Positions 7,796 through 56,673 of a DNA stretch of 64,000 nt are shown in pieces (position 1 is the first letter of the stretch; every line of letters starts with the position of its first letter). The stretch is taken from assembly GCA_019358895.1 (NCBI GenBank), contig JAHHIG010000003.1:186001-250000 (forward strand). The letters run 5' to 3'. The DNA is from Tildeniella nuda ZEHNDER 1965/U140 (GTDB lineage Bacteria; Cyanobacteriota; Cyanobacteriia; Leptolyngbyales; Leptolyngbyaceae). The notes under the pieces are model-generated. The model was not told the DNA's origin and ran no database searches. It worked only from the letters and a program-made list of their open reading frames with translations. The position numbers and the translations under genes are program-made.

Positions 7796-8380
7796 ATGAC
7801 CTTGGCAGCTCAAAACACCGCATCCCAACTGATGACGCTGGAAGAGTACCTCAAGTACGACGATGGCACAGACACTCGGTATGAGTTAGTGAATGGAGAG
7901 TTGCTTGTTATGCCGCCCGAAAGTGATCTGAACCAGCGAATTGCGTCGCTGCTTTTTGCTTACTTTCTGCAACAGGGAATCCCACCCTATCGTTTGAGGA
8001 TTGGCACTGAAATTGTCGTCAGCGGTTCACGGGCAACGACGCGTTTCCCTGACGTGACGATCCTGTCTGAGGAGTTGGCGATCGCTCTAGAAGGAGCCAC
8101 GCGATCGACCGTCATGCCAGAGATGCCGCCACCATTGTTAGTTGTTGAGGTGGTCAGCCCTAGCCAGGAGACACGAGACTACCGCTACAAACGCTCAGAA
8201 TATGCAGCACGAGGCATTGCCGAATATTGGATTGTTGACCCGATGCAGCAGAAGGTGACGGTGCTGGAATGGGTGGAGGGGCTGTATGAAGAAGCCGTGT
8301 ATGCAGGAGAAAGCCCGATCACCTCGCCATTATTCGGTGCGCTGCAACTCAATACCGCTCAAATTTTGCAGGGGCGATGA
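7796..8380 (+). CDS. Uma2 family endonuclease-fold protein (DUF820)
   Basis: A 194-residue Uma2/DUF820 protein, a PD-(D/E)xK-fold family greatly expanded in cyanobacteria. Visible are the N-terminal [11 protein letters not shown] lead, the [16 protein letters not shown] segment, the acidic metal-site strand [10 protein letters not shown], and [36 protein letters not shown] with the E...K pair and tyrosine typical of the family. The biological role of Uma2 proteins is not established; nuclease activity is inferred from the fold. The next gene, an Rpn-family nuclease, begins 7 bp after its stop, so they are probably co-transcribed. Upstream at 7735-7756 is a CTGACCG simple repeat. Confidence 0.9.
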
Positions 8381-8387
8381 ACAAAAC

Positions 8388-9305
8388 ATGCGACGGGATT
8401 CTCTTTTCTATGCCTTATTTCAGCAATCGCCAACGCTGTTATTCGAGCTATTGGACGAGTCTCCGCCCAATGCTCAAAACTATCGCTTCGATTCCGTTGC
8501 CGTCAAAGAACCCAAATTTGAAATCGACGGCGTGTTTTTGCCACCCGAAGCGGATGCGCCCGGAGTGGTTTATTTCTGCGAAGTGCAGTTTCAAAAAGAC
8601 GAACAGCTTTACGAGCGTCTTTTTGGCGAGTCATTTTTGTACTTTTACCGAAACCGCAGTCGCTTCAGCGATTGGCACGCGGTGGTGATTTATCCCACAC
8701 GCTCCACCGAGCAACGGGACACGCATCCCTATCGATCGCTCTTAGCCAGCAACCAGGTACACCGGGTCTATTTAGATGAACTCGGTGACGTGCAACAGTT
8801 GCCGATCGGGGTGGCGTTGATGGCTCTCACCGCGGTAGACGCAGCCAGTGCTCCAGCAATCGCTCGATCGTTGGTAGCCCGCTTACGCGCTATCTCCTCG
8901 GACGCGGTACCAGAGGAAGGGCAAGCACAAGCGGCGAGTCGCGCCATAATAGAAATGGTTACAACAATTATGGTTTATAAGTTTACAAACTTGAGCCGAC
9001 GGGAGGTTGAGGCAATGCTAGGTACTGCACTTCAGAAAACGCGCGTTTATCAAGAAGCAAAAGAAGAAGGACGGGAAGAAGGACGGGAAGAAGGACGGGA
9101 AGAAGGACGGGAAGAAGGACGGCAGCAAGCAGTCCGATCGCTCATCCTGCGTCAATTGACCCGTCGGGTCGGCGTGTTGTCTGAAACTCTCACAGCACAG
9201 ATTACGGCTCTCTCCGTGGAGCAGCTAGAAGCGCTGGCAGAGGCATTATTAGATTTTCAAGCGATCGCAGACCTGGAGGTTTGGCTGGAGTCCCAGTCCC
9301 GGTAA
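8388..9305 (+). CDS. Rpn/PD-(D/E)XK nuclease family protein (DUF2887)
   Basis: A protein of about 305 residues. The core begins MRRDSLFYALFQQSPTLLFE and includes FEIDGVFLPPE, VVYFCEVQFQKDEQLYERLF (the D...ExQ nuclease motif of Rpn/DUF2887 proteins) and YPTRSTEQRDTHPYRSLL. After a linker, five near-perfect tandem copies of a 12-bp unit (about 9060-9120) encode REEGREEG-type repeats, a charged helical spacer common before the C-terminal helix of this family. The C-terminal part (QLEALAEALLDFQAIADLEVWL) is also typical. The ATG at 8388 is preferred to a longer frame running back into Uma2. A 21-bp-period array starts 2 bp after its stop codon. Confidence 0.85.
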   Translation: MRRDSLFYALFQQSPTLLFELLDESPPNAQNYRFDSVAVKEPKFEIDGVFLPPEADAPGVVYFCEVQFQKDEQLYERLFGESFLYFYRNRSRFSDWHAVVIYPTRSTEQRDTHPYRSLLASNQVHRVYLDELGDVQQLPIGVALMALTAVDAASAPAIARSLVARLRAISSDAVPEEGQAQAASRAIIEMVTTIMVYKFTNLSRREVEAMLGTALQKTRVYQEAKEEGREEGREEGREEGREEGRQQAVRSLILRQLTRRVGVLSETLTAQITALSVEQLEALAEALLDFQAIADLEVWLESQSR

Positions 9306-9307
9306 GC

Positions 9308-9718
9308 AACGATCGTGCTTTGAGCTTGATTGTTGCAGGTTTAACCTGGAACGATTCCTTTGGAACGCTGCGCGAACGCACTTCAAACGGGAAACTTGCA
9401 GTTTCAAACAGGAGCGATCACATCTCAAACAGGAATGATCGCACTTGAAATAGGAACGATCGCACTTGAAACAGGAAAGTTGCTGTTTGAAGTAGGAACG
9501 ATCGCACTTGAAACAGGAAAGTTGCCGTTTGAAATAGGAATGATCGCACTTGAAATAGGAACGATCGCACTTGAAACAGGAAAGTTGCCGTTTGAAACAG
9601 AAACGATCGCATTTGAAGTAGGAACGATCGAGCTTTTTGCTCCGAACTTGCACCTCAGAACTCGAAACGCCGCGCTTTTTGCTCAAACGATCAAGCTTTT
9701 TACTCGAAACGTAGGGCG
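9308..9718. repeat. Degenerate tandem array, 21-bp period, about 19 units
   Basis: From 9308 the sequence falls into 21-bp units without a phase slip for about 19 units. The commonest unit begins AACGATCGCACTTGAAAC; an alternating variant begins AAAGTTGCCGTTTGAA. Central units are nearly identical and outer ones drift. Because 21 is a multiple of three, open frames run through it on both strands; the plus frame (TTG at 9360 to 9782) reads as heptapeptides such as IALETGK and LPFEIGM. No ribosome-binding site supports translation, so I annotate it as a repeat, not a gene. Confidence 0.9.
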
Positions 9719-9728
9719 TAGGGTGTCA

Positions 9729-9796
9729 AGAAACCGGGTTTCTGGCGATCGCATTGAGCGTCAGGCAGCAACCTTTGCCTAAAAAACCCGGTTTCT
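9729..9796. repeat. Paired AAACCGGGTTT-type short repeats
   Basis: AGAAACCGGGTTTCT (9729-9743) is a near-perfect palindrome. A related AAACCCGGTTTCT copy occurs at 9784-9796, about 40 bp on. Short elements of this kind are scattered through many cyanobacterial genomes. Between and around them no gene is seen. Confidence 0.7.
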
Positions 9797-9808
9797 CAGT
9801 CCGCTTGC

Positions 9809-9895
9809 TTACTTGCCCAGTTTTTCTCGAATAATGCGCTCCATCGCCTCATTGTTTGTGTGCAGATAAAAGACCTTAGCACCGCGTTGAACTTT
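9809..9895 (-). pseudogene. Remnant of a minus-strand gene end
   Basis: Read on the minus strand, this short open stretch ends in TAA (complement of 9809-9811). It encodes about 28 residues ending MERIIREKLGK, preceded by GAKVFYLHTNNEA, and is closed upstream by an in-frame stop (9896-9898). It looks like the tail of a protein whose 5' part is lost, perhaps displaced by the neighbouring repeats. I do not recognise the family. Confidence 0.35.
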
Positions 9896-9944
9896 TTAGC
9901 GTTTGCCAGCGTCTAAAACCATGTAATACGACGTTCATCACCCC

Positions 9945-10709
9945 ATGACTGCATATCAGCTGCCCTTGGCGACCTATTCAGGCTCGATTTCAGCCCCAAT
10001 CGCGCACGCACCGATCCTACCCAAGACCACTCCGGCAATTGCTGCTAAGGGCATTGACATGAGCTTTCAGTCAGGGTCAGACCACTATCAAGCCCTCAAG
10101 CATGTTGACCTGGAACTGAAGAGTGGTGAGATTCAGCTTCTGATGGGTCCGTCTGGATCGGGTAAAACAACGTTGCTGTCCATTTTGGCGGGGATCCTCA
10201 CTCCTACTAAGGGCAGCGTTCGCTTGTTAGGACAGGAAATTACAGGTATGTCACGATCGCAGTTAGCGCGGTTTCGGTTAGAGCACATCGGCTTCATCTT
10301 TCAAGGTTTCAACCTGTTCCCAGCTCTGACGGCGCTAGAAAACGTGGAAGTTGCTTTGAACGTCAAAGGCATTCGTAAACATGCGGCTACAAAGCAAGCA
10401 CGCTTGTTGCTAGAGCAGGTGGGGCTGACAGAGAAAGCACATCAGTTGCCCCGTGACTTATCGGGTGGGCAAAAACAGCGGGTGGCGATCGCGCGGGCGC
10501 TGGGTGGCGATCCAAAGCTGATTATGGCAGACGAGCCAACAGCAGCCCTAGATTCACAGACTGGACATGCCGTGATTGAACTGCTGCATCGGTTGGCAAA
10601 AGATCAAAACCGCACGGTGCTAATGGTGACGCATGATGCACGCATTATTGACTTTGCCGATCGAGTCGTGACGCTCGAAGACGGCGCTGTCAAACAAAAG
10701 ACGTTTTAA
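9945..10709 (+). CDS. devA: ABC transporter ATP-binding protein, DevA/LolD-MacB type
   Basis: A 254-residue ATPase. Walker A GPSGSGKTT is near residues 68-76, the Q-loop is in FIFQGFNLFPALTALENV, the signature is LSGGQKQRVAIARAL, Walker B is LIMADEPTAALD and the switch histidine is in MVTHDARI. The 'FNLFPALT' and 'ENVEVAL' wording fits the DevA/MacB-LolD group, which powers DevBC-type tripartite export of lipids or glycolipids in cyanobacteria. About 35 residues precede the canonical ABC start. No devB membrane-fusion or devC permease gene lies beside it; it is flanked by a repeat region and a glycosyltransferase, so its partners must be elsewhere or absent. Confidence 0.85.
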   Translation: MTAYQLPLATYSGSISAPIAHAPILPKTTPAIAAKGIDMSFQSGSDHYQALKHVDLELKSGEIQLLMGPSGSGKTTLLSILAGILTPTKGSVRLLGQEITGMSRSQLARFRLEHIGFIFQGFNLFPALTALENVEVALNVKGIRKHAATKQARLLLEQVGLTEKAHQLPRDLSGGQKQRVAIARALGGDPKLIMADEPTAALDSQTGHAVIELLHRLAKDQNRTVLMVTHDARIIDFADRVVTLEDGAVKQKTF

Positions 10710-56255: not shown

Positions 56256-56325
56256 TTTGCTATGCATCTAAATCAAATCTCGATTTTCACTTATTCATAG
56301 GTTTGATCAGCAATGCCCAAATTCC

Positions 56326-56673
56326 AAGCTTAAAATGCCAGATTCCAGGCTCGACCTTGCGGATTGTAAGCTCGAATTTTCAAGTTTCAAGCTCAAAGTT
56401 TCGGGTTCTAAACTCGACTTTTCGGACCCTAAGCTCGAATTTTCGGACTCTAAGCTCGAAGTGTCGGACTGTAATCTCGAAGTTTCAGGTTCAAAACAAG
56501 ATCATTCGCGTTCAAAACAAAATCATTCGCGTTCAAAACAAGATCATTCGGACTCCAATCCCGGAGTTTCGCCTTCAAAGCTTGAGCCTTCGAGTTCAAC
56601 ACTTCAAGTTTGATGTTCAGCGCTCGAAACGTCAGGTCTTAAACTCGACGCTTCGATTTCTGAGCTTCAGAGA
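56326..56673. repeat. Degenerate tandem array, 21-bp period, about 16 units
   Basis: Sixteen units run without a phase slip from 56326 to 56661, with partial ones on each side. A typical unit starts AAGCTCGAATTTTCGGAC; a three-unit subgroup starts AAACAAGATCATTCGCG. Two plus frames remain open; one (56335-56613) reads KLEFSDS-type heptads. The position is between the hydrolase and SDR paralogue 3. No ribosome-binding site favours translation. It resembles the array at 9308-9718 in period and in the CTYGAA core. Confidence 0.88.

Follow-up and report, generated by a model that had tools for sequence, protein, structure and literature searches.

What keeps the length of a repeated unit fixed while its letters drift? 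The question is raised by a tandem array of 21-bp units (array 1) that follows an Rpn-type nuclease gene in the window, the whole stretch of 64,000 nucleotides analysed here. Autocorrelation of positions 9308-9718, which the first-pass annotation had proposed as a check, gives an identity of 0.58 at lag 21, 0.63 at lag 42 and 0.66 at lag 63, whereas no lag in 2000 shuffles exceeds 0.37. A cyclic 21-bp profile aligned with gaps allowed extends gap-free over 9305-9712 (408 bases, 19.4 units), at the cost of 121 mismatches. These results bear out the earlier description of about 19 units in an exact 21-bp period free of indels. The Rpn-type identity assigned to the neighbouring gene is likewise upheld, with matches to TIGR01784 (E 1.1e-23), PF11103 and PF14261. 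This gene also contains a perfect 12-bp repeat of five copies, GAAGAAGGACGG, at 9063-9122, which encodes EEGR repeats.

The core of array 1 is composed of two unit types. They had been described as alternating, but their actual order (Table 1) is a different one, which agrees with the stronger 42- and 63-bp signals. In addition, the 19 repeats had all been taken for ordinary units, whereas one of them is an SDR5-like insert and the last four are of a different type, matching an array on contig C15 of the same genome (L019) at 83%. The window harbors an additional 21-bp array, array 2, which is absent from the first-pass annotation. It is located between an alpha/beta-hydrolase gene and a short-chain dehydrogenase gene, and its cyclic 21-bp profile has 112 mismatches and 0 gaps. 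The gene on its right has no match in 10 relatives, in a search run without a positive control.

Table 1 Features of the two arrays and their neighbourhood in the window.
Feature	Position	Strand	Remarks
Uma2-family gene	7796..8380	+	syntenic in congener G006
Rpn-family nuclease / putative transposase gene	8388..9305	+	largely lost in congener G006, which retains the array
Array 1	9305..9718	+ (strand reading TTTSAAAYAGGAACGWTC)	about 19.5 units of 21 bp; non-coding; begins at the end of the Rpn-type gene
SDR5-like 21-bp insert	9356..9376	-	in a CGATCG site of array 1
Core of array 1, nine units of two types (starts AAYGATCGC and AAAGTTGC)	9434..9622	+	order A A B A B A A B A
Last four units, of a different type (CTTTTTGCTC / CTTTTTACTCG)	9623..9706	+	phase kept; match the C15 array (L019)
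ABC-transporter ATPase gene	9945..10709	+	right flank syntenic in five congeners (G001-G005), with no such array directly upstream there
Array 2	56302..56669	+	17.5 units of 21 bp; second sequence family

The phase of array 1 is kept across the insert at 9356-9376 because the insert itself is 21 bp long. SDR5 elements, a name that goes back to Elhai in 2008, are reportedly very small mobile repeats of cyanobacteria. According to the accessible part of PMC4390886, SDR5 inserts between the third and fourth base of GCGATCGC. The insert in array 1 follows this rule, with GCG before it and ATCG after it, the site being without the last C of HIP1. It is therefore termed SDR5-like, a label taken from the site rule and not from the published SDR5 sequence. 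While sharing the reported insertion site, it differs from the tandem units in being a dispersed single insert, a passenger in array 1. SDR5-like 21-bp elements between GCG and ATC are also found within the 21-bp arrays L004, L014, L016 and L007 (the L007 insert measuring 42 bp), and the relatives' arrays L058 and L071 carry such elements as well. When a free gap of 2-26 was allowed, eight of nine matches in 34 genomes contained the same 21-bp insert, one of the eight being locus L180, outside any array. The element is thus simply 21 bp long, and the idea that such inserts keep phase on purpose was rejected. The mobile SDR5-like element and the tandem unit are equal in length.

Array 1 and array 2 belong to a dispersed class. 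Used as a DNA query, array 1 has 52 matches on 12 contigs of the own genome (E up to 1), and array 2 has 11. All 31 match loci that were examined, weak matches included, have a lag-21 array near the match. A sample of 1,497,008 bp (C24:1-420000, C11:1-720000 and the whole of C27; 24.6% of 6.08 Mb) contains 154 strongly periodic regions, the period of a region being the smallest that reaches 0.88 of the best identity, so that an array of period 14 is assigned to 7 if its 7-bp identity is strong. Ninety of these regions have period 7 and 28 have period 21, 42 or 63; the remaining ones have periods of 9 (11 regions), 15 (eight), 18 (six) and eight other values with one or two regions each. None of the 154 has a fundamental period of 14, 20, 28 or 35, and the multiples of 7 above 7 are represented by 21, 42 and 63 only. 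The 77 periodic regions without an open frame divide into 54 of period 7, 16 of period 21, 42 or 63, three of period 9, two of 18, one of 15 and one of 22. TRF, which allows indels, finds a consensus size of 21 in 28 of 72 long rows and of 42 or 63 in eight more, its minor sizes being 20 (five rows, with 21 in the period column), 14 (two rows) and 28 (one row). By proportion, the whole genome would hold about 114 arrays of period 21, 42 or 63. Most arrays have 10-26 units. The period-7 regions, which outnumber the 21-bp class in this sample, are also indel-poor.

Nineteen of the 28 arrays are mainly intergenic according to a crude gene caller. Among the other nine, three lie in better-supported called genes and six under low-scoring ORFs largely within the array. 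The 19 intergenic arrays occupy 12 tandem, 4 divergent and 3 convergent gaps, and the background of gaps longer than 150 bp comprises 379, 196 and 86, respectively; compared by eye, these counts show no bias toward divergent or convergent gaps. The first-pass annotation had held that its reading would fall if no other genome or locus carried such arrays. The 28 regions in 1.5 Mb contradict this, as does a search of 58 genomes (the own one and others of its genus, family and class), 11 of which, the own one included, match array 1. Samples of 200 kb contain two arrays of period 21/42 in congener G001, both without an open frame, five of period 21 in G010, one of them without an open frame, one with open frames in G030, and one without in G055. 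Judged from these small samples, the class may therefore be thinner outside the genus. The plasmid and phage collections have no match to 9390-9640 at E 1e-5.

Because 21 bp is also seven codons, a heptad-repeat peptide gene had been suggested, with open frames said to run on both strands. Open frames do exist, and three ORFs, 145, 140 and 64 aa long, overlap array 1, but five of its six frames carry stops, and the sixth, with 0 stops, compares with 1.8 from column shuffles (p 0.09). One frame of array 2 is open as well (0 stops versus 3.0 in column shuffles, p 0.01), and 3 of the 168 frames tested are as low in stops as this one. Variability depends on codon position in none of the 28 arrays (smallest p 0.128), 12 of the 28 are stopped in all six frames, and Pfam gives nothing above cut-off for four array ORFs. 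Protein coding was rejected as a general account on these grounds, and a heptad-repeat peptide gene is most improbable. The three arrays within better-supported called genes (C11:702127, C27:72213 and C27:127374) are exceptions that may be coding; they are included in the indel, codon, compensation and 28-array symmetry counts. The periodic stretches at C27:72213-72531 (42 bp) and C11:702127-702384 (21 bp), which lie in long called genes, are unlike the intergenic class.

Heptameric STRR are tandem repeats of cyanobacteria. The 21-bp arrays resemble them in that abundant tandem repeats occur in the same genome, 21 being 3 x 7, and in that a hidden heptad is detectable. Their unit, however, is 21 and not 7 bp: the mean identity of the 28 arrays is 0.29 at lag 7 versus 0.60 at lag 21, and folded lag-7 identity is at most 0.53. 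Moreover, the hidden heptad is unlike most 7-bp arrays of this genome. CRISPR arrays share the regular repeat spacing, but here there is no separate repeat and spacer, and the entire 21-bp unit repeats. A closer likeness is found with the bacterial tandem repeats described in the accessible part of PMC8161180, which vary in sequence but keep a constant size of 20-21 or 52 nt. This part names Cyanobacteria as carriers, citing an earlier paper, remarks on the two helix turns and proposes selection on size, with a nucleoid protein or a small RNA. It also reports transcription of the 52-nt repeats and a characteristic motif that, within a species, most arrays have in every repeat. The class and the two-turn/protein idea are therefore already in print, which overturns the initial statement that no described cyanobacterial family has these properties. 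As far as that text goes, the arrays share with the 20-21-nt repeats a fixed period of 21 that is constant across arrays of different sequence, several families per genome, a non-coding nature (in line with the codon, stop and location counts above) and lineage specificity. They may differ in the motif, no 5-mer being common to more than 10 of 35 arrays in this genome. The arrays are thus a variant of a known, unexplained kind of bacterial repeat. Dyad symmetry, an indel rate against a control, orthologous persistence and a hidden heptad do not appear in the accessible part of PMC8161180; nor do an indel-versus-control comparison, dyad symmetry, orthologous persistence or a 3.5/7-bp rhythm in the portions seen of the openly licensed literature (including PMC6749651 and PMC8625621). 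The same part of PMC8161180 leaves open why repeat length holds at 20-21 nt while the letters drift.

A within-genome control for indels shows that length is constrained in these arrays. The 28 own arrays comprise 9845 aligned bases with 3007 mismatches to the unit consensus and six gap events of 1-2 nt, and a minimum spanning tree over their units contains at least 2040 substitutions. A planted single-base indel was recovered in 60 of 84 trials. In alignments of the own genome with its relatives, gaps number 594 per 4520 substitutions (0.131) in alignable intergenic DNA and 239 per 23811 (0.010) in coding DNA. With this sensitivity of detection, about 191 gaps are expected in the 28 arrays at the intergenic ratio and about 15 at the coding ratio, versus the six observed. 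The deficit is about thirtyfold in the own arrays and larger in relatives, where 24 arrays with 2494 mismatches and at least 1884 substitutions contain one gap versus about 175 expected. These relatives' arrays were found by gapped BLAST, which counters the fixed-lag bias, while long matches still somewhat favour gap-free arrays; having been found by likeness to array 1, they are not independent of it. The 7-bp arrays of the same genome are similarly gap-poor (22 gaps per 6215 mismatches), and the 9-bp and 18-bp arrays have 1 gap per 892 and 0 per 354 mismatches, respectively. Indel depletion as a mark of 21 alone was rejected, since the low gap rate in 7-bp arrays means that depletion is not special to 21 and that a copying mechanism could be its cause. 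Unit length is constrained, but the gap counts by themselves do not tell selection from a unit-copying mechanism.

Compared with column-shuffled profiles, the unit profile is significantly closer to its own reverse complement (p <0.05) in 14 of the 28 sample arrays, the other 14 having no significant symmetry, in 7 of 10 further own loci and in 17 of 20 relatives' arrays. A mirror-image control reaches the same level in 7, 2 and 1 arrays of these three sets; for the 28 sample arrays its combined p of 3e-4 is above chance, versus 9e-15 for the reverse complement. The unit of the main family contains the dyads TTTSAAA and GGAACGWTC, 10.5 bp apart, a spacing that follows from twofold symmetry together with the tandem period of 21. 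Conservation is symmetric as well. The information per column of type A correlates with that of the dyad partner (r 0.90 in own, 0.69 in congener and 0.88 in other-genus arrays), and the type-A dyad centre is the best of all 21 centres in each of the three sets. Column frequencies of type A agree between own arrays and congeners (r 0.984) and between own arrays and other genera (r 0.967), within sets of 13 of 35 own, 11 of 11 congener and 5 of 12 other-genus arrays that were selected by a match of at least 13 of 21 to a typed consensus, a filter favouring consensus likeness. The 35 own arrays in the symmetry-profile and rhythm sets are 25 of the 28 together with 10 other own loci, the three arrays in better-supported called genes being left out. 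For the relatives, 24 arrays were fitted for gaps, 23 entered the type-A and rhythm statistics (L055 was dropped) and 20 the reverse-complement symmetry.

The units also contain a rhythm of A/T content, with the strongest harmonic at 3.5 bp in 23 of the 35 own arrays, which are of several sequence families (z 12). The strongest harmonic of A-minus-T skew is at 7 bp in 21 of 35 (z 14). In the 23 relatives' arrays the same peaks are found in 17 and 16, respectively, and the consensus units alone of the own arrays give 16 of 35 for each. There is no 3.5/7-bp peak in 12196 intergenic 21-mers of the genome. The averaged hidden heptad is approximately TTSRARS. This rhythm is more widely common than the best 5-mer, CGATC, which occurs in 10 of 35 arrays versus a shuffle maximum of 4. 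At 10.5 bp, AA/TT is modestly in excess (z 3.9 in own and 3.8 in relatives' arrays) and W content is not. Dyad symmetry and A/T rhythm together provide a concrete handle for seeking a DNA-binding protein, or for excluding one.

The persistence of the arrays in relatives is partial. Congener G006 has the rph and Uma2 genes to the left of array 1 in synteny, at 84% identity. Of the Rpn-type gene only two short remnants are left there, and the one from the gene end is directly followed by an array of about 17 units that keeps phase. G004 keeps rph, Uma2 and the first part of the Rpn gene, and its examined loci with these genes contain no lag-21 array. The right flank, from the ABC gene onward, is syntenic in G001-G005; upstream of it, these genomes have no Rpn match and no directly adjoining lag-21 array, and G005 has a weak 126-bp lag-21 signal (0.46) about 770 bp away. 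With the left genes and the array kept in G006 and the right flank without array in G001-G005, array 1 sits at a synteny break. Another array, C11:390144-390478, is found at the same place in G001 and G005, with DNA of 79-84% identity on either side. In G004 it lies beside the right flank, on a contig that starts inside the array, and in G006 it is shortened to about five units. No array is present at this site in G002 or in five other-genus genomes examined, G003 being cut by a contig end. Given that arrays are missing at orthologous sites in some relatives, no single array is indispensable. Comparison unit by unit at the two orthologous loci gives no prominent single diagonal, and unit order is lost: at the C11:390 kb locus, unit distances are 6.0-7.4 between species and 5.9-7.4 within species.

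We tentatively prefer, at a confidence somewhat short of even, to regard array 1 as one copy of a dispersed, mainly intergenic non-coding satellite whose 21-bp period would be under helix-phase selection, with a predicted role as a protein-binding scaffold. The degenerate twofold-symmetric unit (TTTSAAA ... GGAACGWTC) would present a symmetric site at every helical turn, all on the same face of the DNA, and a dimeric DNA-binding protein could occupy the arrays cooperatively, one dyad per turn. Units would be gained, lost and exchanged, so that letters and unit order turn over, while a unit of 20 or 22 bp would shift every later site to another face and be lost. We propose that, if the sites are needed on one face, indels would be punished and many substitutions tolerated. 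The arrays might in this way organise the chromosome locally, as a nucleoid scaffold or anchoring site; the absence of a visible bias to promoters or gene ends points to such a chromosome-level rather than a gene-level role. The phased-platform reading, which the first-pass annotation had put forward, fits the symmetry and conservation data as far as sequence can tell. A wider version is more doubtful, namely that about a hundred intergenic arrays are platforms for a twofold-symmetric protein, a dimer per turn, which would read the degenerate 3.5/7/10.5-bp A/T rhythm over the exact letters and serve chromosome-wide anchoring or compaction. If this is true, the "constant-size" bacterial satellites would be cis-sites of a bacterial chromatin scaffold. 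Against a scaffold stand the likewise gap-poor 7-bp arrays, the W content without a 10.5-bp excess, the half of the sample arrays without significant symmetry, and the absence of array 1 at the right flank in G001-G005 and in the examined G004 loci.

The chief rival is a selfish or neutral satellite, which we consider possible though not probable. Hairpins of its quasi-palindromic units would provoke slippage or recombination that lengthens or shortens arrays by entire units, and the copying mechanism, as a unit-length filter, rather than a function would account for the constant length. The low gap rate of the 7-bp arrays speaks for it, and so do the loss of unit order between orthologues and the presence or absence of an array at a site among congeners. 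The twofold symmetry is also consistent with it, as is the single-strand folding of array 1 (z -5.3 on the minus and -2.8 on the plus strand) and a small excess of local complementary pairs (1976 versus 1903 in column shuffles, z 3.65, with single arrays from -6.0 to 3.8), although compensation within units is weak. What argues against it is the near-identity of type-A column frequencies in other genera, which drift alone would not keep, along with the symmetric conservation profile, the missing fundamental periods of 14, 28 and 35 bp and the size of the indel deficit.

RNA transcribed from the strand opposite type A, forming repeated hairpins or a protein sponge by analogy with the Bacillus repeats of PMC8161180, is a lesser rival and an unlikely one. 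The transcription of 52-nt repeats, reported in the accessible part of that paper, and the better folding of the minus strand of array 1 speak for it. The dyad mispairs of type A point the same way, if weakly: A:C exceeds G:T in own arrays (351 versus 244) and in relatives (428 versus 219), so that more wobble pairs would form on the complementary strand, which agrees with the folding. For the two genes that adjoin array 1, however, that strand is antisense, the orientation of type-A arrays relative to neighbour genes is not fixed (judged by eye in few cases), local compensation is weak, and Rfam has no match at E up to 1 for 9200-9900. It is more unlikely still that the arrays are functionless, decayed STRR heptamers fused three by three. 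The hidden 7-bp order of the units, with a lag-7 identity that reaches its maximum in one family, would be expected from such an origin, and the 21-bp arrays L003, L024, L025 and L031 do adjoin 7-bp arrays. Nevertheless, the clean 7-bp arrays are mostly of other sequences (ACCGCTG in 12 of 28, AGCTATC in 4 and ACTCCCC in 3) and mostly without the 3.5-bp A/T rhythm; decay would also leave indels and 14- or 28-bp forms, of which the periodicity scan has none and TRF the three rows given above among 72. ACCGCTG is the commonest heptamer of the clean 7-bp arrays.

A further element is seen by eye beyond the end of array 1, where an inverted repeat at 9730-9799 has the form GAAACCGGGTTTCT ... AGAAACCCGGTTTCT or close to it. 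A similar inverted repeat, also recognised by eye, follows the C11:390 kb array (about 390470-390560) and its orthologue in G004.
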